From a virus, in the IMG/VR virus record IMGVR_UViG_3300041409_000508, positions 1-64,000 of that record: a stretch of DNA of 64,000 nucleotides. One strand, 5' to 3'. The notes beneath the pieces were generated by a model that did no database searches, was not told the DNA's origin, and worked only from the letters and a program-made list of their open reading frames with translations. Positions 6,822 to 53,354 of this stretch are shown piece after piece. Positions within the stretch are counted from its first letter, which is position 1; each line of letters starts with the position of its first letter. A program made the translations under genes and the position numbers.

Positions 6822-7284
6822 CGAGACTGACCTAGAGCTGATACAGCGCTATGGTGCATTGGAAGTCATCAAGCAGTATGGTGAGGATGCAGCTATCCAT
6901 GCCATCGCGCTGGCCTGCTTGCGTGACAGCGGTATGTCGGCTACTGCTGTCTACAACACCAACCGAGTAACACCAGTACCATCACCGGCTCCTGAACCGA
7001 CGTTGCTCTACCCGACTTGGGCAGCTGAAGGACGGCCGGCTTCGTACCGTTCCCGACTGCGATACCTACCGGCTGCGGTGACCATCACGATTGCATGCGC
7101 GCTGGTCGGCATTGTGGTCTGGTTGATCGTCAGTGTGCTGACCGCGGTAGCTACTGCTGTGGTGGCTTACTCCAGCGTGTTGACCGGCGGTGTCGTGTTG
7201 CTTGGTCTGGTATGGGTACTGAGCTTGCTTGGTGGCGGCCGTGGTCGCAGCTTCTCAGGAACGTTCCAAGGCAGGATGCATTGA
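6805..7284 (+). CDS. SpdB-like two-span membrane protein (159 aa)
   Basis: The first 45 residues are a helical cytoplasmic region (LIQRYGALEVIKQYGEDAAIHAIALACL), then a Pro-rich linker, then two or three hydrophobic segments from about residue 90 (VTITIACALVGIVVWLIVSVL, VLTGGVVLLGLVWVL). This layout is seen among spread proteins of Streptomyces plasmids. Two adjacent ATGs (6805, 6808) are possible. Confidence 0.6.
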   Translation: MMNTYNETDLELIQRYGALEVIKQYGEDAAIHAIALACLRDSGMSATAVYNTNRVTPVPSPAPEPTLLYPTWAAEGRPASYRSRLRYLPAAVTITIACALVGIVVWLIVSVLTAVATAVVAYSSVLTGGVVLLGLVWVLSLLGGGRGRSFSGTFQGRMH

Positions 7285-7451
7285 TGACAGTAACTAAAGA
7301 AGTACATATCACGTGTGATGAGATAGGTTGCCTATCTAAGCAGTCTTACTCAAATCAGACTATTTTCAATGCGCGATCTGAGGCTAAGAAGTCAGGTTGG
7401 GCCTTCCAAGGCGGCCGAGATTGGTGTCCAAGTCATGCTAAAAGAAAATGA
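7284..7451 (+). CDS. Small Cys-containing protein (55 aa)
   Basis: ATG overlaps the upstream TGA. Cysteines at CDEIGC and a C-terminal DWCPSH suggest a small zinc-binding fold. AT-richer than its neighbours. Confidence 0.55.
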   Translation: MTVTKEVHITCDEIGCLSKQSYSNQTIFNARSEAKKSGWAFQGGRDWCPSHAKRK

Positions 7452-7524
7452 ATGACCGCTACCAAGCTCGGCTGCTGTGAGCACAGAAACGGATATCAGC
7501 GACATCTAGATCAGGAGGATGATC

Positions 7525-7803
7525 GTGGGATGGGACAGTTGGACGAGAACGGCAACAGAGCAGAAGTATCGAGCCCGAGAGAATGCTCCGAAAGGATCGC
7601 CAAGATCTGCGGTTGAGAAGGCTAAGGATCGACTCGCCGGTCACAAGAGCTGTGCTTGTGGCTGTGGCAAGAAAGGCACCGTATTCCGTAACCGCAAGAT
7701 GTACGACAGCGCGTGTGCCAGAGCTCATGATCGGATGGGTGGTCCGAAGGATCGGACCCCTCCGCTAGCAAGGTCGCAGAAGCATGGCCGCTGGGATCGC
7801 TGA
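7525..7803 (+). CDS. Small zinc-binding protein (92 aa)
   Basis: GTG 7525 is preferred because a perfect AGGAGG (7513-7518) lies 6 nt before it; the ATG at 7519 touches the ribosome site. The middle holds CACGCG and a later Cys in a basic context, a likely zinc knuckle of the kind found in nucleic-acid binding proteins. The 70 nt before it hold only a 10-codon frame. Confidence 0.6.
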   Translation: MGWDSWTRTATEQKYRARENAPKGSPRSAVEKAKDRLAGHKSCACGCGKKGTVFRNRKMYDSACARAHDRMGGPKDRTPPLARSQKHGRWDR

Positions 7804-8002
7804 ACCGGGTGACGTAGTCGATACGCTACTCTCCGCAGCCATGCTAGAACTTCCTGAAGATCCATTGACCGGCAGGCTCCCTGAGTTGCTGTGGGAGACA
7901 CCGATCTATGACGAGACAGTCGTCTGGTGGCTCAAAGAGCACGGCGGCCAGCCTCCCCCGCGGGAGCCGCTGGCGCTGTCCTGGTCGGGTCACCGGTCTT
8001 GA
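7784..8002 (+). CDS. Hypothetical protein, last gene of the plus-strand block (72 aa)
   Basis: ATG 7784 lies inside the end of the previous gene. The protein is acidic with a Trp-rich centre (TVVWWLKEHGG). It ends the block; the next supported genes lie on the other strand. The 8003-8093 gap shows no gene. Confidence 0.5.
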   Translation: MAAGIAEPGDVVDTLLSAAMLELPEDPLTGRLPELLWETPIYDETVVWWLKEHGGQPPPREPLALSWSGHRS

Positions 8003-8093
8003 CACGAAGATGGGCGAAGATTTCCGGTAGCGACCCGGTGGGATGTCGTTTAAGCCTCAGCTCCCAGCAAGGACCCACCTTCGCGAAGACAGT

Positions 8094-9316: not shown

Positions 9317-10654
9317 ATGACGACTCTGCCGCTGGTCGGTGATGATGTTCTCGTGCCGCTGGTGACAGGCGGTATCTGCCGATATCGAAATTTCGACTAT
9401 GCCGCGTCCACACCCTGCCTGCTGTCGGTTCATCAAACTGTTGAGAAGTTGCTGCCCTGGTACAGCTCAGTGCATCGTGGCGCCGGCTGGAAGTCGCAAG
9501 TTACGACAAAGGCATATGAAGATGCAAGAGAAACGGTACGCAGCTTCGTCAATGCTCGTCCGGATGACTGTGTGTTGTTCACCCGCAACACTACTGATTC
9601 GATCAACTTATTGATTTCCATGCTGCCACAGGATGCTGTTGTGGTGACTTGGGCATCGGGACATCATGCCGCACTGCTCCCACCTCGACGTCGTTATGTG
9701 ATCACACTGCCGATCCCCACTAATTCTGATGAAGCTCTTAGTCGATTAGAGATAGCATTCCAAGGCATATATCCTCAAGCTTCTCTAGTGGTGGTCACTG
9801 GTGCTAGTAACGTCACTGGCGAAATCTGGCCCTATCATAAGATCACTGAACTAGCTCACCAGTATGGCGCTCGTGTGTTACTTGACGCCGCACAGCTGGC
9901 ACCACATCAGTTGATCGATCTGACTGCCAGTGATGTGGACTACATTGCGTTCAGCGGCCACAAGCTCTACGCGCCCTACGGTGCCGGCGTGCTGGTTGGA
10001 CGTTGTCACTGGCTGGAGGAGGGAGAGCCGTTCCTAGCCGGTGGCGGTGCGGTGGACTTCGTCCGTGTTGAAGACGTGCTGTGGTCCGAGCTGCCGGATC
10101 GGCAGGAAGCAGGATCACCGAATGTGCTGGGAGCGGTAGCGTTAGCTCAAGCCTGCCGAACATTGATGTCAGTTGACTTACAGAAGATAGCCACGCGAGA
10201 AGCCATGCTGATCGACGTACTGCGCACTGGCCTAGCGGCGATACCCGGCATTAAATTCTATCGAATGTGGCCAACAGATCACCCACAGGTCGGGATACTT
10301 ACGTTTAACCTGTATAACGTGCCTTACGCGAAGTTGGCTGCAATCCTGTCAGCGGAGTACGGCATCGGTGTCCGACATGGCTGTTTCTGTGCGCATCCGC
10401 TGATGATGCATCTTCTCGATATGAGCGACGATGAAGCTCTAGCTATCGCTACTGATCGACGGTTAGGACGAGCTACCCAAGTACCAGGCGCGGTACGAGC
10501 TTCAGTAGGAGTCGGGACGACAGTCGAAGATGTGCTGGCGCTGGTCACAGCAGTAGAAGAGATTGCAGTTGGGTATCGCAGGTGGGATTATCAGAGCACG
10601 CTAGATGGTACCGACTGTGTGCCGGTGCCTGATCCACGTGAGTATCCTGTTTAG
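9317..10654 (+). CDS. Class V aminotransferase / cysteine-desulfurase-like PLP enzyme (445 aa)
   Basis: The fold-type I PLP signatures are in order: ARG-NTTDS at 90-94, D190 and Q193 for the cofactor ring, and the Schiff-base lysine K216 in AFSGHKLYAPYGAG. Near the C-terminus VRHGCFCAHP carries C356 and C358 on the loop where SufS/IscS-type enzymes hold the persulfide cysteine. Cysteine desulfurases take sulfur from cysteine and pass it to Fe-S clusters, tRNA or other thio-cofactors. No dnd, tRNA-thiolation or Fe-S scaffold gene is nearby, so the acceptor is unknown. Ribosome site AGGA, 5 nt before ATG. Desulfurase versus other class V activity cannot be settled by reading alone. Confidence 0.8.
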   Translation: MTTLPLVGDDVLVPLVTGGICRYRNFDYAASTPCLLSVHQTVEKLLPWYSSVHRGAGWKSQVTTKAYEDARETVRSFVNARPDDCVLFTRNTTDSINLLISMLPQDAVVVTWASGHHAALLPPRRRYVITLPIPTNSDEALSRLEIAFQGIYPQASLVVVTGASNVTGEIWPYHKITELAHQYGARVLLDAAQLAPHQLIDLTASDVDYIAFSGHKLYAPYGAGVLVGRCHWLEEGEPFLAGGGAVDFVRVEDVLWSELPDRQEAGSPNVLGAVALAQACRTLMSVDLQKIATREAMLIDVLRTGLAAIPGIKFYRMWPTDHPQVGILTFNLYNVPYAKLAAILSAEYGIGVRHGCFCAHPLMMHLLDMSDDEALAIATDRRLGRATQVPGAVRASVGVGTTVEDVLALVTAVEEIAVGYRRWDYQSTLDGTDCVPVPDPREYPV

Positions 10655-10957: not shown

Positions 10958-11599
10958 ATGCGCACACCTAGAGGCTTGATAGTGATCATAAGTTCTGCCC
11001 TGCTGGTCGGCTCGGGCATGAGCGTTGCTGTCGCTGCCCCAGGAGACCCCTGCGCGCCTGGCCGCACGCTGGTCGGGCTGTTCTGTCTTCCTGATCCCAA
11101 TGCGGCACCAACGCCTACGCCAGCTCCTGTGTCTCCAGCACCACAGCCAGCGCCGACTAAGCCGACACCACCAGTGCATAGAGCACAGCCAGCACCAGTT
11201 GCTCCTGCTCCCCCACCACCTGCCGCACCAGCGCCTCCGCAGTCAACGACTCCTGAGTGTCCTGTGGGCAGTGTGGCTGTCGGGCTGCTCTGTCACGAAC
11301 CTTCCCCTTCAGGACTACCGACCGCTGATCAGGAGCGGCTTGCTCTGGTGCGGTTGTGCTTACAGATCCGTGCTGGTCAGATCATCGGTGCACAGACTGG
11401 CGGGCCTATCACCACACCAGACAATTCGGCTGTCAAGGCCGAGCTGGTCTGTGACATCACCAAACCATTGCCGCCTATTGTGGCACCACCGCCACCTGCA
11501 GAAACAGTGCCTGCGCCTGCTCCCGCCAGTCCTCCTCAACCCCCGACTGCGGGGCAGAACCTGCAGAACAACCCCCAGCCAGTCGAGGTGACTCACTGA
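10958..11599 (+). CDS. Secreted Pro/Ala-rich protein with two Cys repeats (213 aa)
   Basis: Residues 1-27 form a signal peptide. The mature protein has two copies of a short module (PCAPGRTLVGLFCLP and ECPVGSVAVGLLCHE), separated and followed by long Pro/Ala-rich linkers like those of wall-spanning actinobacterial proteins. Between them lies a helical segment with two Cys. Probably exported to the cell envelope of the host; function unknown. Confidence 0.75.
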   Translation: MRTPRGLIVIISSALLVGSGMSVAVAAPGDPCAPGRTLVGLFCLPDPNAAPTPTPAPVSPAPQPAPTKPTPPVHRAQPAPVAPAPPPPAAPAPPQSTTPECPVGSVAVGLLCHEPSPSGLPTADQERLALVRLCLQIRAGQIIGAQTGGPITTPDNSAVKAELVCDITKPLPPIVAPPPPAETVPAPAPASPPQPPTAGQNLQNNPQPVEVTH

Positions 11600-11644
11600 T
11601 CATGCTATTGTCGGCGCTAATCACTTCGACAAAGGGGAGAACTT

Positions 11645-11977
11645 ATGGCACTCGTACAGACACGGGTAGATGACATCGACGGGACTGAGGCGGCAGGTGA
11701 GTTTACTTTCGCGGTGAACGGCACGAGCTACGCCATCGACCTGTCAGAGGCGAACGTCAAAGAGTTTCACGCGGCTATCGGTGGCTTCATCGAGTCAGCC
11801 CGCAAGGTCGGTAAGGTGGCGTCTGCCAGCGGTAAGAGCCATGTGTCGACCTCGATGCGCCAGAGTCGTGAGCAGACCGCAGCCATCCGGGAGTGGGCTC
11901 GCAAGGCTGGCTACAACGTCAGTGACCGCGGCCGTATCCCCAGCGAGGTACAGAAGGCATTCAATGAGCAGGCTTAG
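11645..11977 (+). CDS. lsr2: Lsr2 nucleoid-associated protein (110 aa)
   Basis: Length and architecture match Lsr2: an N-terminal dimerisation domain (FAVNGTSYAIDLSEANVKEF) and a C-terminal DNA-binding domain with the AT-hook-like RGR at 95-97 (YNVSDRGRIPSEV). Lsr2 bridges and silences AT-rich DNA in actinobacteria, and phages often carry homologues that can affect host or phage silencing. GGGGAG precedes the ATG. Since many plus-strand genes here are AT-rich, they are plausible targets (inference). Confidence 0.9.
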   Translation: MALVQTRVDDIDGTEAAGEFTFAVNGTSYAIDLSEANVKEFHAAIGGFIESARKVGKVASASGKSHVSTSMRQSREQTAAIREWARKAGYNVSDRGRIPSEVQKAFNEQA

Positions 11978-12086
11978 GGGCGTGCTGGCCGCGGTGTTCG
12001 TGGCCGGTGCGCTGGCGATCGGTGCTGCAGCGCTCGTCGCTCCACAGGACCCCTGCACCGAGTTCACCTGTGGCGGGATCGTCTGA
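11964..12086 (+). CDS. Small exported or membrane peptide (40 aa)
   Basis: ATG overlaps the 3' end of lsr2 by 14 nt. A hydrophobic segment (LAAVFVAGALAIGAAALVA) is followed by a short tail with two Cys (DPCTEFTCGG). Similar in style to the minus-strand 12861-13025 peptide. A terminator follows. Confidence 0.6.
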   Translation: MSRLRGVLAAVFVAGALAIGAAALVAPQDPCTEFTCGGIV

Positions 12087-12130
12087 TAGGCTTCGTCACG
12101 CGAAGCTGGAGCTGTTTACAGTTGCTAGAG

Positions 12131-12173
12131 CAAGCCCTGACCGGACCCCAGTAGCCAGTCAGGGCTTGTTTCT
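12131..12173 (+). terminator. Terminator between converging transcription units
   Basis: An 11-bp perfect stem (12131-12141 with 12158-12168) is followed by TTTCT. It ends the lsr2 unit just before the 3' end of the minus-strand late operon, and may work in both directions. Confidence 0.8.
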
Positions 12174-12178
12174 ATTGG

Positions 12179-12334
12179 TCACCAACTCCAGCCGGTCGAC
12201 GCGGGCGGCTGGGGTCCTGGTCCGTTGGGCGTGCCATAGTCAGGCCCTCCGTAATACGGGCCTCCACTAGGTGGCACCGGGTGGCCGTCAGTAGGTAGTG
12301 GCAGTGCTGAGGTGAAGATCTCCGAGATGGTCAC
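12179..12334 (-). CDS. Small Pro/Gly/Tyr-rich protein (51 aa)
   Basis: GTG at 12332-12334 overlaps the TGA of the upstream amidase gene. The second half is Pro/Gly/Tyr-rich (GGPYYGGPDYGTPNGPGPQP), likely disordered. It is the last gene of the late operon. Confidence 0.5.
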   Translation of the reverse strand: MTISEIFTSALPLPTDGHPVPPSGGPYYGGPDYGTPNGPGPQPPASTGWSW

Positions 12335-12864
12335 GACTGGCTCACGATCCTTCGGTAGAGGTCGTCTGGACTGACCAGGTTGGCAGCCTGAGCACCTGTG
12401 TCGATGACGATGCCAGCGTGGCGGTAGCAGTCGGCGACCAACGCTGAGCACACCCGCCAGCTGTCCTGTTGAAACACTCGATCAAGCTGCGCCTCAGTCC
12501 GCAGCTTCAGAAGTTCCAACGCGAAGCCGATATACGAAGCGTAGTCATACGGAGTGCCGACCATTGCTTGAGCTTTGGCAATGATGGCAAGACGCTGGTC
12601 ATCACTGAGTGACTCGTGGATGTTCCACACCGCGTCAGGATGGCTGTCTGCGGAGACCACCCGAGCCACCAGAGTATGGCCTTCGACTATCTGGCCGTTG
12701 CCTAAGTGTAGAAAACAGTGTCCAGCCCAAGAGTCCGTGGCATGGCGCACCAGCTCCCCGACGATACCGACACCATGGCTCACCCCGTAGCAGCCAGGAG
12801 CCACCACAGAGCCGTCACGGGAGATGTAGGGCGCCAGCTCGGACAAGACGACAGGTGCGATCAC
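12331..12864 (-). CDS. Permuted papain-like (NlpC/P60-type, YiiX-like) hydrolase (177 aa)
   Basis: The order His first and Cys later fits circularly permuted papain-like enzymes: H49 in WAGHCFLHLGNG, E61 in QIVEG, and C139 in SWRVCSALVADCYRHAG. The segment VGTPYDYASYIGF is also typical of the family. Members cleave amide bonds in peptidoglycan or lipid substrates. Its place after endolysin and holin suggests a lysis or entry role, but no signal peptide is seen. GTG start overlaps the neighbouring stop. Confidence 0.75.
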   Translation of the reverse strand: MIAPVVLSELAPYISRDGSVVAPGCYGVSHGVGIVGELVRHATDSWAGHCFLHLGNGQIVEGHTLVARVVSADSHPDAVWNIHESLSDDQRLAIIAKAQAMVGTPYDYASYIGFALELLKLRTEAQLDRVFQQDSWRVCSALVADCYRHAGIVIDTGAQAANLVSPDDLYRRIVSQS

Positions 12865-17708: not shown

Positions 17709-17853
17709 TGACCTCCCGACTCATCGGAATAAACAACACACGAGGTACACCGGTCTCTACAAGCGCTCGCAACACCGATAACGCGGCTTCGTTGTAACCG
17801 TGCGATATGTCGTAGATAGCGTCATCCGCCATGTGCTTCTCTTTGGTGTCCAT
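17701..17853 (-). CDS. Small hypothetical protein (50 aa)
   Basis: ATG 17853 overlaps the TAA of the giant fibre gene (TAATG), and its TGA overlaps the next gene's start region by 8 nt. Compact alpha-helical look (AALSVLRALVETGVPRVLF). No family assigned. Confidence 0.55.
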   Translation of the reverse strand: MDTKEKHMADDAIYDISHGYNEAALSVLRALVETGVPRVLFIPMSREVNE

Positions 17854-20800
17854 TAAATGATCTCCGTGTCACCTTGAGTCGTACCTGATATATCGGTGTC
17901 CCCGACTGCAGTGCCACTCAGTGATGTGTCACCTGAAGCTGAGCTACTGACGAGTACCGTGTCCTGGCTGAGCTGTGTCAGAGCTACCGCGCCTACCGCC
18001 ACGGTGTAGGTCAGCGTGACCGAGCCGACTTGTGGTGGCCACGGTGGCGGGGTGTAAACGGTCGCTGCCAGGACAGCGCTGGCCAGCGTGAGGACTGAGA
18101 CGTCAGCGAACTTCAGTTGCCGAGCCGTGAGCAGCGCTGAGCTGGTAGTGGTCGCTGTCAGCGCCGCGGCGTCAGCGCGGCCGGCCAGCGCAAGGACCGA
18201 TGTGCTGGTCGCTGCGCTGACTGATGCACGATCGGTACGCGTCGCTGTAACCAGCGCTGCAGCGGTAGTCGAACTGGCCAGCACTGCAGTGTCGGTGCGA
18301 TGCGCGGCCAGCGTGGCTGAGCTGGTAGTCGTTGCGCTGACAAGACCAACGCCGCCGACCACAGCAGAGACAGAGCTGCTGGCGGTCGTTGTGCTGGCCA
18401 ATGCTGCAACATCGGTCCGTGTCGCTGTCAGGGAAGCTGTGCTAGTCGTAGCCGAGTTAACAGTGCCGGTCTGAGTCCGGGTACTGATGACCGAGCTAGC
18501 CGCGGTTGTCGTGCCGGTCAGCGCAGCGCTGTCAGAGCGAGTAGCGGTGACCAGAGCTGTGCTGGCCGCGCTGCCGGTAGCTGCGCCAGGCCCTACAGCC
18601 AGAGCGGAGACGCTGGCACCAGCTGTAGTAGTGGAGCTGGTTGAGACCGCATAACCAGCGCTGACGGCCGTCGCGCTAGTAGTCGTAGTGCTGACAGCAG
18701 CAGTGTCGGTACGAGTAGCGGTAACCGTGCTGGCTGTAGTAGTCGAACTAGTCAGTGCCGCAGTATCGGTACGGCTTGCTGTGATCGCTGCACTATCAGT
18801 TGTCGCGCTGGCCAGAGCTGCAGTGTCAGTTCGAGTCGCAACAATCGACGCATTGGCTGTTGTCGACGCAACAATGGTAGTCGTAACCGCGAGAACTTCG
18901 ACTGCGACGATCGAATAAGTTTGACTCGGAGTAGTGAGGCCGACTGTCTTAGATCCTGCTGAGCCGGCATCAGCGTGGAACCCACCGTAGACAGTGTATT
19001 TAGTGGAAAGGAAGTTGTAGGTTTCTTCAGTGAAGGCGCCGGCACCGGTACGCCACACCCGAGAAGCACCGTCAGCAGCATTGAAGTCGGCGTTAAAGAT
19101 AACTACAGCAGAATGAGCGGCTGTCGTTGTAATAGCTAGCGTCGGTGCTGCTGAAGCCCCATTGCCTATCGCGCTGTTGCCTATTCCTGTCGATGACGAG
19201 AACCGCTCGACAGTGAAACCCCACTCTTTGGTACCGCCAGCCCGAGCAATAGAGAAGGTAAATGTTTCTGCAGTGGTCGCAGTCGCTGTCCAGGCGTAGA
19301 GCGTGTTGCGACCAGTAACATTGACCATGGACTGTGGCAGAGACCAGATAAGGCTGGTGCCACCGGTCGGCGTTGAGATGGTCTCTGTCGTGAAACAGGT
19401 AGCGCACGCGACCAGCACGTCGCCGACAGCAGTAGTGACAGAGACCGTCTTAGGGCTGGTGGTGGTCGTCCACGAGCCTTCGTACTTGGCGACGAACACC
19501 GGAGCAACAGGAGCCACCGAAAGCCCGGTGACCGTGGTGCTAGCTGTTGTCGCTGAGGTCAGTGCTGCAGTGTCGGTACGAGCTGCAGCGGTTGACACTG
19601 CTGCAGTTGTCGAACTGGTCAGTGTGGCGCTGTCAGCCCGAGTAACGACCACACTGGCAGCCGCAGTGACTGTGCTGGCTAGAGCTGCTGTGTCAGTCCG
19701 GCTAGCCACAACGCTGGCTGCAGTCGTAGTAACCGGGCTAGTGGTTGCCGGCCCTACAGCAGCCGCTGAGATGCTGGCGCTGGCTGTTGTGGTTGTGCTG
19801 ACGGCTACGGCATAGACCGCGGTAACTGCCGCTGCTGACGTTGTAACTGCGCTGACTGCCGCAGTGTCAGTGCGCGCTGCGGTGATCGAAGTAACCGCAG
19901 TGCTGGCGCTCGTCAGACTAGCTGTGTCGGTACGTGATGCCGCGGATGTGAACCCAACAGTAGTAGCGGCAGTGACGACGCCAGGATTGATGGCGCTGGC
20001 AATAATAGATATGCTGGCTGTAGTAACCGAGCTGATTGCCGCTGTGTCGGTACGAGCAGCTGTTAGTGCTGCTGCGCTAGTTGTCGCTGAACTGACGTTA
20101 ACATTACTGACGACAACAGCAGACACTGATGCGCTGGCAGTAGTGGCTGAGCTAAGGCCGGCTACATCAGACCGAGTTGCGATGATGCTGGCGTTAGCAG
20201 TACCGGCAGAGCTGAGAACTGCTGTGTCAGTCCGACTAGCCGCAATACTTGTGCCAGCTGTGGTGACCGCATTGACAACGATCGTCAGCGCGATGATCTC
20301 GACAGCGACAGCCGAGTAAGGGAAACTCGGCGCCGACATTCCCAACGTTTTGGCGCCTGTTGTGCCGACGTTTTTGTAATGTGCGCCGTAAGAAGTGTAG
20401 TGCGTCGCGAAGATGACGAATGTATCCGAGACTACTGCGCCAGACGTGAGATACGTCGCAGCAGTGCTGCCACCGTTGAAGTCGTTAGCACCGAACACGC
20501 ACAAGCTGTTAGGAGCTGTTGTGGTGAGGCTGGCGGTCGGCGCCGCTGAGGATGCGTTACTGGTAGCGGTTGCCACACCAGCGCCGTTGCTGTTGCTGAA
20601 CTGGTAAGCGACAATGCCGCTTGCGCCACCACCGCTGTTTACCGCCGACAGTGTGAAAGTCTGGTTAGTAGCAGACTTATTCGTCGTCCACAGATAAATG
20701 TTGTTGGTACCTGTGACGTTGACTACCGATGCCGCCAGCGTGTATGTGAGACCCGTGCCGCCAGTCGGAGCGCTGAACGTGACCGCAGTGGACTGGCTGT

Positions 20801-21191
20801 AGGCGATGACAGCGAGAACATCACCGGCGTTGACTGTGACTGATATCGTCTTCGGCGACGCTGTCAGCGGAAAATCGGAGTCGGTCTCGTAAGCCGTGAC
20901 GAGTACCGGCGAAACAGGAGGGGTTGAGCTTGCCGAGACGGTGGCACTGGCTGTAGTAGCCGAAGTTACCACACCAGTGATCGTGACGTTAGCGGTGACT
21001 GTCGCTGCCGATGTAATGGTCGTGGCAGTGTCGACATTGTTGGGCGCTAATGCACTGGTGACTGTCGCAGCAGCGGTGGTAACCGCAGCGACATCAGCGA
21101 AGGCATCGAACAGACGCCACGTCGGATACGAATACGGATCATAGATGAACTGCAGACGGCTGGGTTGCCCGCTGGCGCCACCGCGAGCCAT
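17853..21191 (-). CDS. Giant Ser/Thr/Ala repeat protein, fibre or adhesin-like (1112 aa)
   Basis: Most of the protein consists of degenerate repeats about 20 residues long built on ARTDTAALxSxTTAxAxVxA. Two globular insertions (about 95-300 and 575-760) look like related beta-sandwich domains: both contain SPKTxSVT, a VNVTG motif and a YxxYG-H motif. Composition and position among minor tail genes suggest a long exposed fibre that contacts the host or environment. The repeats predict a regular beta-rich rod. Real coding, not low-complexity noise, since the frame stays open for 3.3 kb with neighbours abutting at both ends. Confidence 0.75.
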   Translation of the reverse strand: MARGGASGQPSRLQFIYDPYSYPTWRLFDAFADVAAVTTAAATVTSALAPNNVDTATTITSAATVTANVTITGVVTSATTASATVSASSTPPVSPVLVTAYETDSDFPLTASPKTISVTVNAGDVLAVIAYSQSTAVTFSAPTGGTGLTYTLAASVVNVTGTNNIYLWTTNKSATNQTFTLSAVNSGGGASGIVAYQFSNSNGAGVATATSNASSAAPTASLTTTAPNSLCVFGANDFNGGSTAATYLTSGAVVSDTFVIFATHYTSYGAHYKNVGTTGAKTLGMSAPSFPYSAVAVEIIALTIVVNAVTTAGTSIAASRTDTAVLSSAGTANASIIATRSDVAGLSSATTASASVSAVVVSNVNVSSATTSAAALTAARTDTAAISSVTTASISIIASAINPGVVTAATTVGFTSAASRTDTASLTSASTAVTSITAARTDTAAVSAVTTSAAAVTAVYAVAVSTTTTASASISAAAVGPATTSPVTTTAASVVASRTDTAALASTVTAAASVVVTRADSATLTSSTTAAVSTAAARTDTAALTSATTASTTVTGLSVAPVAPVFVAKYEGSWTTTTSPKTVSVTTAVGDVLVACATCFTTETISTPTGGTSLIWSLPQSMVNVTGRNTLYAWTATATTAETFTFSIARAGGTKEWGFTVERFSSSTGIGNSAIGNGASAAPTLAITTTAAHSAVVIFNADFNAADGASRVWRTGAGAFTEETYNFLSTKYTVYGGFHADAGSAGSKTVGLTTPSQTYSIVAVEVLAVTTTIVASTTANASIVATRTDTAALASATTDSAAITASRTDTAALTSSTTTASTVTATRTDTAAVSTTTTSATAVSAGYAVSTSSTTTAGASVSALAVGPGAATGSAASTALVTATRSDSAALTGTTTAASSVISTRTQTGTVNSATTSTASLTATRTDVAALASTTTASSSVSAVVGGVGLVSATTTSSATLAAHRTDTAVLASSTTAAALVTATRTDRASVSAATSTSVLALAGRADAAALTATTTSSALLTARQLKFADVSVLTLASAVLAATVYTPPPWPPQVGSVTLTYTVAVGAVALTQLSQDTVLVSSSASGDTSLSGTAVGDTDISGTTQGDTEII

Positions 21192-41186: not shown

Positions 41187-41207
41187 GAGAGATCTCCCTT
41201 GTGTTGA

Positions 41208-43493: not shown

Positions 43494-43674
43494 GAAATGG
43501 CAAGATCGAGTAGCACTTATCGCTATCGCGGAAGTATTAGCTGAGCATCTTGAGAGTTGTGAAGACATGAAAGATAACGCGCTACTTCCTAGTGACCGAG
43601 TTCGAGGTGCGATAAAGAGTCTTACGGACAGCTATGCTGACGACTATCAGCACATCGATTCCAACACATCGTAA
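43492..43674 (+). CDS. Small accessory protein (60 aa)
   Basis: AGGAG lies 7 nt before the ATG. Helical and acidic (RVALIAIAEVLAEHLESCEDMKD). Convergent with the terminase gene, overlapping its 3' end by 28 nt. Confidence 0.6.
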   Translation: MKWQDRVALIAIAEVLAEHLESCEDMKDNALLPSDRVRGAIKSLTDSYADDYQHIDSNTS

Positions 43675-45110
43675 GCCCGAGCTCCGTACACCGCTAACCC
43701 ATGCAGTGCCAGTGCAATGGCGAGTACCGGCGAGACGCTGTCCTCACTGCGTCGGCGGCTGAAGCTCCACAGGCCGTCACCAATATCACGCTTCTGCGCT
43801 ATCCGAATGGCCTCACTGATGCAGGGCTGGTTGAGGTGACGCAGCTCGTCTATCGCGGTCGTCGCCTTGTGTAGCGCGCCACACGCCTGTCCTAGCTCAC
43901 GCACCCCGACCAGCTCAGGCTCTATCCCCGCGGCGCGTAAATCCTCCAGCAACGCTCCTGCCGGTCCCGCTGGATCGAGCACCCAGGCTGCCGGCGACCA
44001 CTGCTCCTGTAGCTCTACAGCGCGTTCCACCAGCCAGGTCACTCCCTGGCGGTGATCCAGTACGTCATCCCGACTGGTGACCTCGACATGCGGGATACCG
44101 TCGATTCGATAGCCGGACACCGCGATACAACCGTACGACAGGTCTTCGTCTACCTCGATAGAGAAGACCATCGGGCTGGCTATTACCGACAGTGGGTCGG
44201 CCAGTAATGCCCACAGATTGAGATCGATGATCGGAGCACCCAGCGGGTCATCCCAGACACCAAGTACCTCACGAGCGAACTGATCTTCTGGCATGGACCG
44301 CTGCGCGATCTGCAGCGTCTTCACTTTGATTCGTATCCCGAGAGCAGGATTAGCCATCGCCCAAGCAGCAGGCATATTGGCTACGTACTCAGGAGCTGCC
44401 TGATAAACCTCGCTAGGAATCGACCACTCGTAGTAAGCCAACCCTGGGTCTTTCGATATCCCACGATCACGAATCCTGCGCAACGCATCAGAATCCTTCT
44501 GGCCAGCACTGGAAATATACCAAATCTGCCAATTCTGCCGAGCGAAGAGAATCGGCATCAACGCGCCCATCTGAGTAGCCGCCAATGCGAACGCCTCATC
44601 CATGAGGATCACATCGTATCCCGACCAGCCACGGGCACTGGTTGCGGTTCGAGCGACGAAGTCTATTCTCGCTCCTGACCGCAGAGTTATCGAGTAGTCG
44701 TTGGTACTGGCTTTGACCTTCTTCACCTCACGATCGAGATCAGGCGCGTTCTCGATCATGCGTATTGTTTCTTCATGAATCTTCTGTGTCGTCGTCATGA
44801 TGTGGCTGGTATAGATCACTCGTGACCTCATCAGAAACACCGCGTGCAGTGCGGCTACTTGCATGGTCACTGTCTTGAGGTTCTGCCTCGGCACGACCAA
44901 ACCGACCTCAGGAGCTGACCACTCGCCGTCCTCTGTGTGCCCCAGCGCTCCCCACAAGATCCTCTTCTGTGCCGGGTCCATCGGCATGCCGGTCAGCGCG
45001 GCCAACTCGATCGCATCAGCACCAGAGCTGGTCACCCACGGCGGCACCGACTCGATCCGCGGTACCTGGCTGCCGATCAGTTTAGGGACAGCTATCATTA
45101 GCCTTTTCAC
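43647..45110 (-). CDS. terL: Terminase large subunit (487 aa)
   Basis: Walker A-like motif at 74-80 (PRQNLKT) after EVGLVV, Walker B at 166-173 (DVILMDEA), coupling motif near ISSAGQKDS, and a C-terminal nuclease half with FSIEVDEDLSYGCIAVSG carrying the conserved acidic residues. TerL cuts and pumps DNA into the head. The start may be 45110 or the in-frame ATG at 45098. Overlaps the upstream small gene by 29 nt. Confidence 0.9.
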   Translation of the reverse strand: MKRLMIAVPKLIGSQVPRIESVPPWVTSSGADAIELAALTGMPMDPAQKRILWGALGHTEDGEWSAPEVGLVVPRQNLKTVTMQVAALHAVFLMRSRVIYTSHIMTTTQKIHEETIRMIENAPDLDREVKKVKASTNDYSITLRSGARIDFVARTATSARGWSGYDVILMDEAFALAATQMGALMPILFARQNWQIWYISSAGQKDSDALRRIRDRGISKDPGLAYYEWSIPSEVYQAAPEYVANMPAAWAMANPALGIRIKVKTLQIAQRSMPEDQFAREVLGVWDDPLGAPIIDLNLWALLADPLSVIASPMVFSIEVDEDLSYGCIAVSGYRIDGIPHVEVTSRDDVLDHRQGVTWLVERAVELQEQWSPAAWVLDPAGPAGALLEDLRAAGIEPELVGVRELGQACGALHKATTAIDELRHLNQPCISEAIRIAQKRDIGDGLWSFSRRRSEDSVSPVLAIALALHGLAVYGARAYDVLESMC

Positions 45111-45586: not shown

Positions 45587-47407
45587 ATGACAAGGCCAGT
45601 CTCTACCAGAGCCGCTGACACTGCCGCGGTGCGCGCCATCGCCCAGGCGTGTGTCAACGTCGAGCTGTTCACCATCCCGCTGTACCTCGCCGCCGCTACC
45701 TCGATCGCCGGCATGCACCAGATCACGGGGAAGAACAGCGACTTCTACACCGGACGCTGGTGGCCGGGTGCGGCGACCACAGCCAACCCGCAGACCACTA
45801 ACGAAACCGCTTACAACATCATGTTTTCAGTGCACGTCGAGGAGATGCTGCATCTCCAGCTCGCCGCTAATCTCGCCAGTGCAGTAGGAGTGACGCCGCT
45901 GTTCACGTCTCCAATACTGCAGGATGAGCAGTACGGCTGGACCTGCTACGACAGCTCTGTCATACCCCACGTCGTAGACTTAAAAGACACTGTCCACAGT
46001 GATGCCATAGTGAAGATAGATGGCCTCACTCGTGAGCAACTAGAGCTATTCTTGATTATCGAAGAGTCCGAAGTGACATCACGAAGTCATATCACCGCAC
46101 CAGAGAAATACTTTCCTACTGTCCCGTTCAATAACTGGACAGAAGAGATGACCGAAGTCGATCTGCCGATGTTCGGCACTATCGGCCATATGTATTCGTG
46201 CTATTACGAATATCTGAGCTCAGTGTACGAAGACGGCTTGACGTTATGGGATCACGTCTTCGTTCCCGACTCCCAGCAGAACGACCTGTTCAATGTCGAG
46301 AACACCGGTCATCCGAAGAAAGAATACACAGGATTTCGTACACTCATCACCACGTCAAACCCATCTAAAGCATACTCACAGGCTCTAGCGATGATGAACG
46401 CCATCACCGATCAAGGCGAAGGTTCTGTGCTCGACCAGCGTTCTGATAACCCATCAGAGGTGGCGACTCAGTACGAAGCAGCTCAAGACGCCATGGAAGT
46501 CGACTATCCCTCTTACAGCGACACCGGAGAGCTAGCTCCTTCAGCTGACACGATGGCTCGTTATACTTACGGAGACTGGGATCACTACGACCGATTCAGT
46601 CAGCTACTGGAGATGGTCGATCAAGTGACTCTCTGGCCAGCTTGGCATAAGCAACACGGACCATGGACAGCTGACGATTTGCAGAGTATGCAAACTGAAC
46701 CCAGCTTCTACGACATCCCGAGTGCTGCTGACGTTGCTGATGCGATGAACCGCATAGCCGCAAGCCCTGATCTCATGCGACCACTGTTCAACCAGGCTGC
46801 TGTTGGTTCTCTGGCCGGCATCACAACCGTGCTCAACCAGTACTGGGCTAAACCTGACGTGATCTTCCCCTACCCGGCGATGGTGGGGTCAGGTGACCGC
46901 ATGACGATGAGCTGGGCACTGTTCAGACTGCCACCAGACCTGTCAGTTGGTGCTGACACTAGCTCTGTCAGCGGGTCTGCGCACGCCTGCCAGAGCCTGA
47001 ACCTGACAGAACCAGGCAACGACTGCGCTGCAATCGGGGTCTACCATTCCTGCCGCGGAGCCAACAACTGCGCCGGTCAAGGTGGCTGTGGCTTCGTGCA
47101 GAAGATCAGCGCCGCGCAGCCCAGCCAGCACGGCTTCGCCTTAGTGAAGGCCAAAGCTGCTACCAGCGGCCTGTTCAGCGCTCCCAGTGCGAACGCCTGC
47201 GCCGGCCAGGGTGGCTGTGCGGTCCCGATCTCAGCATCTCAGTTGCTCGTGCAGAGCGGGACGATGCAACTCTACGACGATGACCAGCCATTTGATGAGC
47301 TTGCATTCAGTAAGGGCGAGCCAGTGCACGAAGTAGCGATGCGCGCTGCTGGTCTAGACGAAGTACCACCCAATGATGTCCGGCTCGTGCTGCCGCCGGC
47401 AACCTGA
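45587..47407 (+). CDS. Ferritin-like (VioB/IPD-synthase-type) protein with Cys-rich C-terminal tail (606 aa)
   Basis: Start at ATG 45587, preceded by TACTGT (45573-45578), a possible near-leaderless -10. Residues ~15-100 carry the ferritin-like diiron pattern: VNVELFTIPLYLAA and VHVEEMLHLQLAANL (ExxH). This family includes the VioB iminophenyl-pyruvate dimer synthase domain. From residue ~460 the protein changes to a Cys-rich tail: C468, C480 (GNDCAAIG), C489, C495 and C501 (HSCRGANNCAGQGGCG), C538 and C544 (NACAGQGGCA). Motifs of this CxGxNxCxGxGGC type resemble substrates of MNIO enzymes. Together with the MNIO gene downstream this suggests a protein that is both enzyme-like and modified on its tail (inference). 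Confidence 0.75.
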   Translation: MTRPVSTRAADTAAVRAIAQACVNVELFTIPLYLAAATSIAGMHQITGKNSDFYTGRWWPGAATTANPQTTNETAYNIMFSVHVEEMLHLQLAANLASAVGVTPLFTSPILQDEQYGWTCYDSSVIPHVVDLKDTVHSDAIVKIDGLTREQLELFLIIEESEVTSRSHITAPEKYFPTVPFNNWTEEMTEVDLPMFGTIGHMYSCYYEYLSSVYEDGLTLWDHVFVPDSQQNDLFNVENTGHPKKEYTGFRTLITTSNPSKAYSQALAMMNAITDQGEGSVLDQRSDNPSEVATQYEAAQDAMEVDYPSYSDTGELAPSADTMARYTYGDWDHYDRFSQLLEMVDQVTLWPAWHKQHGPWTADDLQSMQTEPSFYDIPSAADVADAMNRIAASPDLMRPLFNQAAVGSLAGITTVLNQYWAKPDVIFPYPAMVGSGDRMTMSWALFRLPPDLSVGADTSSVSGSAHACQSLNLTEPGNDCAAIGVYHSCRGANNCAGQGGCGFVQKISAAQPSQHGFALVKAKAATSGLFSAPSANACAGQGGCAVPISASQLLVQSGTMQLYDDDQPFDELAFSKGEPVHEVAMRAAGLDEVPPNDVRLVLPPAT

Positions 47408-47417
47408 GCTTGCATGA

Positions 47418-47438
47418 CAGTACAGCATGTGGTAGTGT
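47418..47438 (+). promoter_or_regulatory. CAGT-box leaderless promoter of the MNIO operon
   Basis: CAGTACAGC (47418-47426), 6 bp, TAGTGT (47433-47438), 7 nt before ATG 47446. TTGCAT lies 17 bp upstream of the -10. Confidence 0.75.
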
Positions 47439-47445
47439 CTGAGCT

Positions 47446-47607
47446 ATGAACGAACGATGCACTTGTGAATACCCAGTCACTCCATTACGAACGAATCTTG
47501 GAGGACATTACAAATCATGCCCATTGTCTAGAGAACCTAACCGTGGATACAATTACTTTGTTCAAGCACAGTCACCACGAGAAGCAAAGCCAAAGAAAGA
47601 TGAGTGA
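47446..47607 (+). CDS. Small Cys-containing peptide upstream of MNIO (53 aa)
   Basis: Leaderless ATG 47446; the TGA (47605-47607) overlaps the MNIO start region (ATG 47600), so MNIO is probably translated by coupling. Contains CTCEYP near the start and KSCPLS, then a Lys/Pro/Glu-rich tail. It could be an accessory peptide, a candidate modification substrate, or simply one of the small zinc proteins that this promoter family drives. Confidence 0.65.
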   Translation: MNERCTCEYPVTPLRTNLGGHYKSCPLSREPNRGYNYFVQAQSPREAKPKKDE

Positions 47608-48403
47608 CTTCGGGGTCGGGTTGCGCTGGCCGCACCATCACTACCTGATGACCACACCCCCAGAGCAGTGGGATGTCGACTGGTTCGAGATCATCTCAGA
47701 GGACTTCTTCGAGGGCCTCGGCTCCCGAGTGCTGGCCAGAATCGGCACCCATAAACCGATCGCACTGCACGGTGTCTCACTGAACATCGGTGGTACCGAC
47801 CCGCTGGACTTCGACTACCTCCACAATCTTAAGATCCTCGCTGCGCAGACCGACCCGCGGTGGATCTCCGATCACTTGTGCTGGACCGGCGTTGCCGGCG
47901 TCGACACCCATGACCTGCTGCCGCTGCCACTCACCGAAGAAACGTTGGTTCATGTCGCCGGTCGGGTGCACTGCGTGCAGGAGTACCTGGACCGGCCACT
48001 CGTACTGGAGAACCCGAGTAGCTACATCCAGTGGTCGGCATCGCAGATGACCGAGACAGAGTTTATGAAATGCCTGATCGGCCGTACCGGCTGTGGCCTG
48101 CTGCTCGACGTCAACAACGCCTACGTCACCGCGCACAACCAGGGCCGCAGCCCGATCGAGTACATCCAGAACTTCCCGATGAGTGCCGTCGCTTATCTGC
48201 ACATCGCCGGCCACACCGACGACTTCAGCGGAATCCTGATCGACACCCACGATCGACCGGTGATCTCCGAAGTGTGGTCGCTGTACCGGCTTGCTCAGAA
48301 CTACGCTGGCGGGCTGCCGACTTTGCTGGAGTGGGACTCGAACATCCCTGGCTTTCCTGAGCTTGTGACCGAACTGAACAAGGCTCGGGCCATCTGTGGC
48401 TGA
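47600..48403 (+). CDS. DUF692 multinuclear non-heme iron oxygenase (MNIO) (267 aa)
   Basis: All metal-ligand positions of the DUF692 TIM barrel appear present: H57 (ALHGVSLNIGG), H92 (ISDHLCW), E137 (LENPSSY), D170 and N172/N173 (LLLDVNN), H201 (YLHIAGH), D215 and H217 (IDTHD), E244 (LLEWDSNIPG). Length fits MbnB/TglH/BufB relatives, which oxidise Cys or other residues of a peptide to thiooxazole, oxazolone-thioamide or related groups. ATG 47600 is chosen because conserved sequence begins there (FGVGLRWP). Overlaps the next gene by 8 nt. Confidence 0.9.
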   Translation: MSDFGVGLRWPHHHYLMTTPPEQWDVDWFEIISEDFFEGLGSRVLARIGTHKPIALHGVSLNIGGTDPLDFDYLHNLKILAAQTDPRWISDHLCWTGVAGVDTHDLLPLPLTEETLVHVAGRVHCVQEYLDRPLVLENPSSYIQWSASQMTETEFMKCLIGRTGCGLLLDVNNAYVTAHNQGRSPIEYIQNFPMSAVAYLHIAGHTDDFSGILIDTHDRPVISEVWSLYRLAQNYAGGLPTLLEWDSNIPGFPELVTELNKARAICG

Positions 48404-48557
48404 CTTACGAGCACTACAGCAGCATCTGCTAACGGCTATCATTACAGGCGATTCTACTGAGCACGTCACGGGTAGGCTCGATGTTTACGCGCGCAGTTAC
48501 AAGATCCGCACACTTCGCCGCGCTCTCGCCACCCTACAGCAATCCAAGATCATTTAA
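48396..48557 (+). CDS. Truncated HvfC/BufC-like (DUF2063 N-terminal) partner (53 aa)
   Basis: GTG 48396 overlaps the MNIO stop by 8 nt. Reads ADLRALQQHLLTAIITGDS followed by VTGRLDVYARSYKIRTLRRALATL, matching the start of DUF2063 proteins (LxxLQxxFxxAL..., RLxVYxxxVxxxLxxALxxT), the usual MNIO partner that binds the precursor. It is only 53 residues, far shorter than full partners, and ends before the second half of the domain. Either minimal or decayed. Confidence 0.7.
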   Translation: MADLRALQQHLLTAIITGDSTEHVTGRLDVYARSYKIRTLRRALATLQQSKII

Positions 48558-49107: not shown

Positions 49108-49449
49108 CTACCATCTACGGCTGCCAGTCGCTAGCTGTGCTAGCGACTTGCGGCGTGCGCTGGCCAGCCCGCGCAGCAGGTTGGAATGCCGCGTGTTGCA
49201 CCCGCGGTGCGCCACTGTCAGGTTCGCCGGATCCTCCGGCGCACCACCCTGCTCTAGACCTACGATGTGGTGCACCGTGGCCGCACGGCCATGGTTAGGT
49301 GCTACCTGAGTAAGCGCGTAGTCGATCGGTCGCCGGCACAGGTAGCACGGCCTACGGTGCATCGCAGACCAGGCCAGCGTCTCCGCCTTTAGCCGCTGCC
49401 ACGTACCCGTAGTGCGACCAGGCCCAGTCTTGACCACCCGATGCTCCAT
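49108..49449 (-). CDS. HNH endonuclease (113 aa)
   Basis: Core reads RRPCYLCRRPIDYAL ... ATVHHIVGLEQGGAPEDPANLTVAHRGCNTRH: CxxC zinc site and the HNH catalytic block. Small HNH proteins encoded near terminase genes assist DNA cleavage at packaging in many phages; here it lies about 4 kb from terL, separated by the MNIO cassette, so the cassette may be an insertion. Confidence 0.8.
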   Translation of the reverse strand: MEHRVVKTGPGRTTGTWQRLKAETLAWSAMHRRPCYLCRRPIDYALTQVAPNHGRAATVHHIVGLEQGGAPEDPANLTVAHRGCNTRHSNLLRGLASARRKSLAQLATGSRRW

Positions 49450-50177: not shown

Positions 50178-50384
50178 ATGAGCGAGAACTTCACCACCGG
50201 AAGCGTCGAAGACTTCGACTTCGGTTACTCAGCAGAAGAGTACGACACCAAAGACTCCCGATACACTGTCACCGCTCTCGAACTCATCAATCCGCAACTT
50301 CGTTACGAATGCCCAGAAGTCAACTGCACCCGACGTTTCGCCGCTGGCTACTCCATCGACTGTCACATCAGAGACGACCACTAA
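50178..50384 (+). CDS. Accessory protein with shared N-terminal tag and C2H2-like end (68 aa)
   Basis: Starts MSEN, then GSVEDFDFGYSAEEYD, nearly identical to the 50596 protein. The C-terminal half reads YECPEVNCTRRFAAGYSIDCHIRDDH, a C2H2 zinc-finger-like pattern. A terminator follows. Confidence 0.7.
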   Translation: MSENFTTGSVEDFDFGYSAEEYDTKDSRYTVTALELINPQLRYECPEVNCTRRFAAGYSIDCHIRDDH

Positions 50385-50595: not shown

Positions 50596-50961
50596 ATGAG
50601 CGAAAACGCAAACATCGGAAGCGTCGAAGACTTCGACTTCGGTTACTCAGCAGAAGAGTATGACAAAGGCGAAATCCGCACTGCAGATGTCATCACCGAA
50701 GCAAAACGCAACGTTGCTCGCAGGATCGAAACTCTTGAAAACGACTTCGATGTCCCGATGTGCGCCAATGACATGATCATCGCACTTCGCACGATCAGTT
50801 TCTGGGCCAAAGATGAAACCACCGTCATCGCATCAATCACCGATGCTCGGTTTTCTTACCTAGCCAGTGCTGCACTAGATGGCCTAGACAGTACTGCAGA
50901 TGTCTTCGACATTGCAGAGATCAAAGATCTGTCAGCTACCACAGTCTCGCTGAGCTGGTGA
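50596..50961 (+). CDS. Accessory protein with shared N-terminal tag (121 aa)
   Basis: The start carries GSVEDFDFGYSAEEYD as in 50178-50384. After that the protein differs and is helical (EAKRNVARRIETLENDF, MIIALRTISFWAKDE, ARFSYLASAALDGL). ATG 50596 is the leaderless start. Function unknown; the common tag may be a targeting or binding module. Confidence 0.7.
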   Translation: MSENANIGSVEDFDFGYSAEEYDKGEIRTADVITEAKRNVARRIETLENDFDVPMCANDMIIALRTISFWAKDETTVIASITDARFSYLASAALDGLDSTADVFDIAEIKDLSATTVSLSW

Positions 50962-52931: not shown

Positions 52932-53354
52932 CTAGTTGTGGTACCAGTTCTGGAAGTTACCACCATTGCAAGGAAGAGTATAGACGCTGTTAGCCGTGTT
53001 CGAGTCAAGACAACGACCAGTAGCCACATCCACTACACGATGTGCAGAACGCTCTACTCGCCACTTCTGAAAGTTGCCGCCATTACAGGGCAGTGTGTAG
53101 ACGTTGCCATTGGTGTTCGAGTCGAGGCAGAACAGTGTGGAGACATCCCGCACTGTAGTGGTCGTACCAGAGCTAATCCAGTTCTGGAAATTGCCGCCGT
53201 TGCAGCCGATCGCGTACACATTGCCTGACGTGTTCGAGTCCAGGCAGTGCAGGGTCGCTACATCACGAAACGTCGACGTAGCCGCCGAAGCGCTAGGCGC
53301 AAATAGCAGTAGCGAGACAATGCTGAACAAAGCAATCAGAACATTACGAAACAC
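52932..53354 (-). CDS. Secreted beta-trefoil (ricin-B-like) lectin (140 aa)
   Basis: Residues 1-24 form a clear signal peptide ending SASA. The mature part consists of three near-identical repeats with CLDSNTxGNVYxLPCNGGNFQxW, the QxW signature of ricin-B/CBM13 trefoil domains, each with a Cys pair. One complete trefoil with no attached enzyme. Such lectins bind sugars outside the cell. Transcribed against its neighbours. Confidence 0.85.
   Translation of the reverse strand: MFRNVLIALFSIVSLLLFAPSASAATSTFRDVATLHCLDSNTSGNVYAIGCNGGNFQNWISSGTTTTVRDVSTLFCLDSNTNGNVYTLPCNGGNFQKWRVERSAHRVVDVATGRCLDSNTANSVYTLPCNGGNFQNWYHN

Follow-up and report, generated by a model that had tools for sequence, protein, structure and literature searches.

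We analysed a 64,000-nucleotide stretch of viral DNA (hereafter the window; positions 1 to 64,000 of the 71,198-base IMG/VR virus record IMGVR_UViG_3300041409_000508). Three plus-strand genes in the window form a cassette encoding, in order, a PF12902 ferritin-like protein, an MNIO enzyme and a 53-residue DUF2063-type partner (Table 1). The record also carries genes for terminase, portal, protease, major head protein, tape measure, tail protein, primase-helicase and DNA polymerase, and is a true tailed phage. The nearest relatives of its terminase are those of Rhodococcus, Mycobacterium and other actinobacteriophages (~33-36% identity), so the host is probably actinobacterial. A first-pass annotation of this DNA had placed the cassette between the terminase genes and an HNH gene, and the coordinates agree.

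Table 1. Features of the cassette and its flanks, in window coordinates (pLDDT, predicted local distance difference test).
Feature	Position	Strand	Remarks
Ferritin-like protein, 606 residues, with Cys-rich C-terminal tail; proposed MNIO substrate	45587-47407	+	ATG start; PF12902
Ferritin-like core, residues 1-455	45587-46951	+	pLDDT mostly >90
Cys tail, residues 466-551; proposed modified region	46982-47239	+	Seven conserved Cys; predicted to be largely disordered
Motif 1, HSCRGANNCAGQGGC, residues 487-501	47045-47089	+	From translation
Motif 2, NACAGQGGC, residues 536-544	47192-47218	+	From translation; followed by AVPISASQ
Small C-terminal module, residues 552-606	47240-47404	+	Ends LPPAT; pLDDT ~70-87
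Copy of repeated intergenic, promoter-like element (repeat family D4)	47404-47442	+	Upstream of small open reading frame and MNIO gene
Open reading frame (ORF) of 53 residues with CTC...C	47446-47607	+	Between ferritin-like and MNIO genes; overlaps MNIO start
MNIO (DUF692/PF05114), BufB-type, 267 residues	47600-48403	+	Most likely start ATG 47600
Truncated N-terminus of DUF2063 (HvfC/BufC) protein, 53 residues	48396-48557	+	GTG start; 8-nt overlap with MNIO gene
Terminase large subunit	43647-45110	-	One flank of cassette
HNH gene	49108-49449	-	Other flank of cassette

The upstream gene had been described as encoding a ferritin-like protein of 606 residues on the same strand as the MNIO gene, with two Cys motifs in its tail. 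This description is confirmed: residues 20-292 match PF12902 at 1.4e-21 (77.9 bits, gathering cut-off 22.3), and both motifs lie in a 141-residue tail that starts at H466. In the AlphaFold2 model (pLDDT 82.4; predicted template modelling score, pTM, 0.86) a confident core stands beside this tail, which has pLDDT values below 50 around 459-472 and at 479-499, 509-526 and 539-543. The sole PDB match of the core model was the ferritin-like protein 3hl1 (E 2.6e-10, TMt 0.73), and a search of a viral structure library found nothing. Residues E26, E86, H89, E159 and E278 occupy invariant columns of a 30-sequence alignment; given this invariance and the ferritin pattern, they are candidate ligands that fit a ferritin-type dimetal site. 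VioB/PF12902 proteins (PDB 3hl1, CC_0557) share the core fold and the helix-borne E, ExxH, E pattern. Unlike the cassette protein, however, the other PF12902 proteins that we sampled have no Cys tail and no MNIO neighbour. Judged by eye from the sequence, the N-terminus (MTRPVSTRAADTAAVRAIAQ) is without a typical signal segment.

Seven Cys columns of the tail are invariant across the fused and split forms described below. In most relatives motif 1 takes the form H-[ST]-C-[RK]-G-S-N-x-C-x-x-[QE]-G-G-C, and in most cellular relatives motif 2 reads DNxCxxxGGCAVPIS; the small C-terminal module is common in part (V580, A584) to stand-alone tail proteins. The earlier annotation stated that similar Cys motifs occur in BufA-like precursors; in profile comparison, the tail resembles Buf2 precursors with a probability of 95% and a score of 47.3, compared to a maximum of 18.6 in 100 composition-keeping column shuffles. 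These shuffles, together with conservation of the tail Cys across phyla, rule out a chance motif. The only NCBIfam match of the stand-alone tails is BufA2 (NF050166), below threshold (18.6-22.1 against 60 bits), and the phage ferritin-like protein does not match that profile. The tail is therefore Buf2-like rather than a BufA2 member. It should also be noted that the two phage motifs share a 31-nt repeat (47060-47090 and 47189-47219, 84% identity) and that phage motif 2, unlike that of cellular relatives, reads CAGQGGC as motif 1 does, which suggests conversion within the tail.

The MNIO matches PF05114 at 8.3e-95 over profile positions 2-261 of 263, and the NCBIfam equivalog MNIO_BufB (NF050167) with 316.3 bits (cut-off 310). 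Its AlphaFold2 model (pLDDT 89.2) matches 3bww (E 1.5e-19), TglH (4e-17) and MbnB (1.7e-16) in the PDB, and the predicted structure has the TIM-barrel fold of these proteins. The first-pass annotation had credited this DUF692 enzyme with all expected ligands, and its reading would fail if iron ligands were missing on alignment; ten candidate ligands (H57, H92, E137, D170, N172, N173, H201, D215, H217 and E244) are indeed invariant in 62 of 62 aligned MNIOs, the phage enzyme included. Over all candidate positions, the ligand residue occurs in 59-62 of these 62 sequences. The DVNN and DTH motifs contain the equivalents of HvfB N175, D242 and H244, each of which is essential in HvfB (PMC13419390). 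At the substrate-specificity position, occupied by Phe250 in FonB and Asp251 in BufB2 (PMC13097082), phage MNIOs have Ser (Ser247) and 46 of 49 cellular relatives have Ala, which makes this a third state. Ferritin-linked MNIOs form one clade (support 100/99), beside but apart from Buf2 MNIOs and apart from Buf1 MNIOs, although this placement is provisional because the outgroup consisted of only eleven plasmid MNIOs.

The annotated 8-nt overlap into a 53-residue DUF2063-like gene was also found. Of the three proteins for which profile searches had been proposed, the MNIO and the ferritin-like protein match their families, while the partner alone matches nothing in Pfam or NCBIfam and only profile comparison finds its kinship. 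Aligned with cellular DUF2063 partners by hhalign, it scores 42.8 with a probability of 94% (maximum 16.7 in 40 shuffles) over ~39 N-terminal positions only. By this comparison, the phage partner truly corresponds to the N-terminal piece of a DUF2063 protein. It is without the rest of the DUF2063 domain and the RRE part, and so does not show the PME-type 1 arrangement (PF09836 plus an RRE-type domain, ~250 residues). The cellular counterparts do match PF09836 and have a full length of ~280-290 residues.

To look for the same gene arrangement in cells, we scanned 84,980 genomes with two patterns from the ferritin N-terminus, AQA[CA][VI]NVE and Y[TP]GR[WY]WPG, which are blind to the tail and to the MNIO. 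The scan gave 50 loci, two of which (L055 and L056) are N-terminal ferritin pieces only and were not counted. Each of the 48 remaining loci has both tail motifs, and immediately downstream come the genes for an MNIO and a DUF2063-type partner; at one of these loci (L050) the ferritin frame is broken but the layout is the same. The species belong to the Actinomycetota, the Alpha-, Beta- and Gammaproteobacteria, the Acidobacteriota and the Bacteroidota (at least four phyla), and a Pseudoalteromonas megaplasmid has the same layout. The control set, from PF12902 searches in ~550 genomes, comprised 27 tail-less PF12902 loci, none of which has an MNIO or a tail within ~1.5 kb on each side (Fisher p about 1e-20 for tail-MNIO linkage in relatives compared to controls).

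One tail-less PF12902 match does have an MNIO nearby. At this Saccharothrix locus (L069, enlarged as L108) a separate 238-residue Cys-tail protein is followed by the MNIO, the DUF2063 partner and a tail-less PF12902 protein. Tail-profile searches covered ~940 genomes, and five further split operons were found, one in the actinobacterial sample (L119) and four in the Bacteroidota sample (L127-L130), along with a divergent fused form (L109). In all six split operons a tail protein of ~200 residues lies beside the MNIO, the partner and a tail-less ferritin; in those from Bacteroidota the ferritin gene is upstream of the tail gene. Since the parts occur both fused and separate, and the tail gene always adjoins the MNIO gene, these operons provide the strongest evidence that the tail would be the MNIO substrate, and they rule out a tail motif unrelated to the MNIO. 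The proposed check on co-occurrence of the tailed ferritin and the MNIO in other genomes is thus answered by 48/48 fused and 6/6 split operons against 0/27 controls. The phage ferritin groups with those of Saccharothrix and Actinophytocola (Actinomycetota; Shimodaira-Hasegawa approximate likelihood ratio test, SH-aLRT, 98). Rather than having arisen in the phage, the cassette is a cellular operon copied in reduced form.

The cassette is also conserved within its phage lineage. A 35-kb contig from another metagenome (L002) carries the same trio, with a ferritin 88% identical to that of the window, the MNIO and a 51-residue partner. Its cassette occupies the same syntenic place at ~84% nucleotide identity, and its surroundings (portal, terminase, HNH and helicase regions) can be aligned with the window as well. 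A further contig (L004) is 99.4% identical to the window over 8.6 kb spanning the terminase-ferritin junction, and the ferritin is present in the same place in L003; these three independent contigs rule out an assembly chimera. The MNIO and partner genes overlap by the same 8 nt in both phages and are therefore probably made together. Ratios of nonsynonymous to synonymous substitution rates (dN/dS) between the window and L002 are 0.12 (ferritin), 0.08 (MNIO) and 0.27 (partner, Fisher p 0.001), and so, by this comparison of sequences, all three genes are under purifying selection; decay of the MNIO alone is ruled out by the same values. The ferritin tail, at 0.22, is less constrained than the whole protein, and all seven Cys are kept. 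MNIO and ferritin searches of 50,697 phage records and a megablast of the 15-kb region found nothing. Scans of IMG/VR viral contigs with MNIO, tail and mixed-MNIO profiles recovered this lineage only, though pattern scans can miss distant cases; one single-sequence scan missed L002 despite its MNIO, so such scans are not exhaustive. Across IMG/VR and the 50,697 phage records, this lineage is the only virus found with a bufferin-type MNIO.

Taken together, these data make it fairly likely that the phage carries a bacterial MNIO operon in minimised form, that the substrate is a protein rather than a small peptide, and that the MNIO modifies the Cys residues of the tail. The genomic evidence gives good support to the proposal that the Cys tail of the phage ferritin-like protein is modified by the phage itself; the modification as such, and a metal-binding or redox product, we infer. 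The ferritin-like protein is predicted to have a metal-binding core made of helices, from which a long, disordered Cys tail extends. The MNIO, helped by its shortened DUF2063 partner, would bind the tail Cys at its iron cluster, as the family and the gene linkage suggest, and would use O2 to oxidise them; 5-thiooxazoles (-4 Da each), which other DUF2063-partnered MNIOs form, are the most likely outcome. The DUF2063-dependent MNIOs studied so far produce copper-binding 5-thiooxazoles (PMC13097082), and because the tail resembles Buf2 bufferins, 5-thiooxazole copper ligands would be the likeliest product here. This would leave the ferritin-like protein, in the cytosol, with soft-metal ligands tethered to its tail. 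Its use in infection is the least certain step and might be copper or iron buffering or control, or a metal-dependent redox enzyme; a role for the 53-residue partner and a benefit to the phage are likewise presumed. A bolder version, which we consider doubtful, is that the MNIO builds a peptide-derived metal site with thiooxazole-type ligands on a catalytic ferritin-like oxidase, the phage MNIO being activated by the RRE-less 53-residue partner and the substrate being brought by its own folded domain. If true, this would be a new enzyme class in which a set of thiooxazole-type metal ligands is made after translation, and the phage version would be its minimal machinery.

Several observations weigh against modification of the tail by the phage MNIO, or against the chemistry proposed for it. 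The BufB match is only marginally above its cut-off, and the long branch of the phage MNIO has no settled position inside the ferritin clade. The residue that follows the motif Cys is Ala in the phage but Lys in Buf2 and many relatives, and Ser247 is neither the Asp of Buf2 nor the Phe of the Lys-Cys type; the product could therefore differ from a 5-thiooxazole. HvfC is required for HvfB activity (PMC13419390), so with the RRE part gone, the phage pair may be inactive alone. This last point leads to an alternative that we regard as unlikely, in which the cassette works only where the host supplies a full-length DUF2063 partner (BufC/HvfC) for substrate recognition, and the 53-residue fragment is a vestige or does no more than stabilise the MNIO. 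Truncation of the partner in both phages, when cellular partners are full length, fits this alternative, and so does the HvfC requirement. However, the fragment has been kept: its end region is conserved, the 8-nt overlap persists and its dN/dS of 0.27 (p 0.001) shows purifying selection, so it seems to do something, and a large fused substrate may need no RRE.

The position of the small ORF at 47446-47607 raises a different alternative: the MNIO could act on another phage peptide such as this one, leaving the tail as an unmodified zinc or disulphide Cys cluster. The ORF directly precedes and overlaps the MNIO gene, which is the usual precursor position according to the MNIO survey by Antoine et al. 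2025 (PMC12452194). However, it has no family match and is not conserved in L002, where an unrelated 143-residue ORF takes its place and the Cys tail is conserved. The tail gene of cellular operons lies immediately before the MNIO gene, and where the operon is split it is the stand-alone tail that takes the precursor position beside the MNIO, leaving this alternative very improbable. We give just as little credence to the cassette being passive cargo, a recently captured host operon fragment (a moron or an assembly chimera) that is functionless in the phage. Its cellular origin is clear from the grouping of the phage ferritin with Actinomycetota, as passive capture would predict. However, the same trio lies among aligned flanking genes in L002, L004 matches across the junction, L003 has the ferritin in place, and all three genes show purifying selection. 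Modification of the tail by the phage MNIO thus remains the reading that we favour.

The closest relation of the cassette is the Buf2 (Cys-Lys type) bufferins. Buf2 systems (BufA2/B2/C2) share with it a BufB-type MNIO, a DUF2063 partner and the order precursor-MNIO-partner, and their precursors share with the tail motifs of the Cys-x-Gly-x-Asn...Cys-Lys-Gly-x-Gly type. In contrast, BufA2 is a short, Sec-exported periplasmic peptide, whereas the substrate here would be a signal-less ferritin-like protein of ~600 residues or a signal-less protein of ~200 residues beside one. Ferritin-linked operons also differ in showing no conserved DoxX or sigma-factor gene among their neighbours and in the separate MNIO clade. 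Captophorins, oxazolin and fontiphorin (HvfABC, FonABC) likewise involve an MNIO and a DUF2063 (PME1) partner and carry 5-thiooxazoles on Cys (PMC13097082, PMC13419390), but with EGKCG repeats and a Phe250-type pocket where the phage MNIO has Ser247 and its cellular kin mostly Ala.

Antoine et al. 2025 (PMC12452194) describe the MNIO-associated precursor families adjamnio, TIGR04222 and Buf fusions; substrates that are large proteins are reported there, as are fusions with bufferin domains (cytochrome c, MerC, FGE-sulfatase), and in this the cassette is similar. Signal-less precursors pair with PME-type 2 partners according to the same paper, a rule that ferritin-linked operons break by pairing signal-less substrates with PF09836 partners. 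The text of that paper names no ferritin, VioB or phage, although such proteins may sit in its supplementary tables, and our search of a literature collection of 5.39 million papers found none that connects MNIOs with PF12902 or ferritin-like proteins in this sense. The operon type therefore appears new to the literature searched, while its kind (MNIO/captophorin) is already known. It occurs in at least four phyla and is unnamed in the surveys searched. If the tail is modified, MNIO chemistry would reach beyond small secreted peptides and include a cytosolic ferritin-like protein of full size, and the natural split and fused pairs make the substrate assignment directly testable. The 53-residue phage partner sharpens the question of whether partners serve in iron-cluster activation or in substrate recognition.

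Between the ferritin-like and MNIO genes lies one copy of a ~40-46-nt repeat of the TTGACAGTGCAGTATGAGGTAGAGTGTGATAGACT type, which a repeat search of the window found ahead of many small genes (copies at 41194, 42870, 47404, 48680, 49465, 50112, 50554, 51235, 52481 and 53388). It is apparently the phage's own promoter or a start-associated repeat. Since a copy precedes the MNIO part of the cassette, the MNIO seems wired into the phage's own expression. An Rfam search found nothing.

When neighbouring genes in cells were clustered, no gene other than the parts already named was conserved throughout as a fourth member. Phosphatidylserine-decarboxylase-type genes lie beside the fused operon in four lineages, assigned by Pfam in L009 (9591-10916), L030 (3664-5115) and L031 (916-2232) and by clustering only in L033 (448-1842). 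Flavin oxidase-like (flavin amine oxidase) and thiamine pyrophosphate (TPP)-enzyme genes are found upstream of some Bacteroidota split operons (L128, 791-2818; L129, 2-3091), hinting at a metabolic role. In L002, a 474-residue flavoprotein (Pyr_redox_3/FMO-like; 11309-12730, +) forms a fourth cassette gene that overlaps the end of the partner gene, and a DNA-methylase-like ORF with a VTDPP motif (6910-8004, +) directly precedes the ferritin gene and overlaps its start; both are absent from the window.

Elsewhere in the window, a SufS-like cysteine desulfurase is encoded at 9317-10654 (+; PF00266 3.4e-79; SufS family 2.3e-77, below the model cut-off). This gene might provide a sulfur or iron-sulfur connection for the Cys-tail cassette. 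The 35-kb L002 record, possibly a fragment, has no such gene. A 1112-residue ORF in the tail region (17853-21191, -) has no PHROG or Pfam match. At 52932-53354 (-) lies an unusual phage gene, encoding a 140-residue ricin-B-type beta-trefoil lectin with three 117-nt repeats. Finally, two neighbouring ORFs share a 70-nt start that is 90% identical (50178-50247 and 50596-50665; MSEN...GSVEDFDFGYSAEEYD), which points to a recent duplication.

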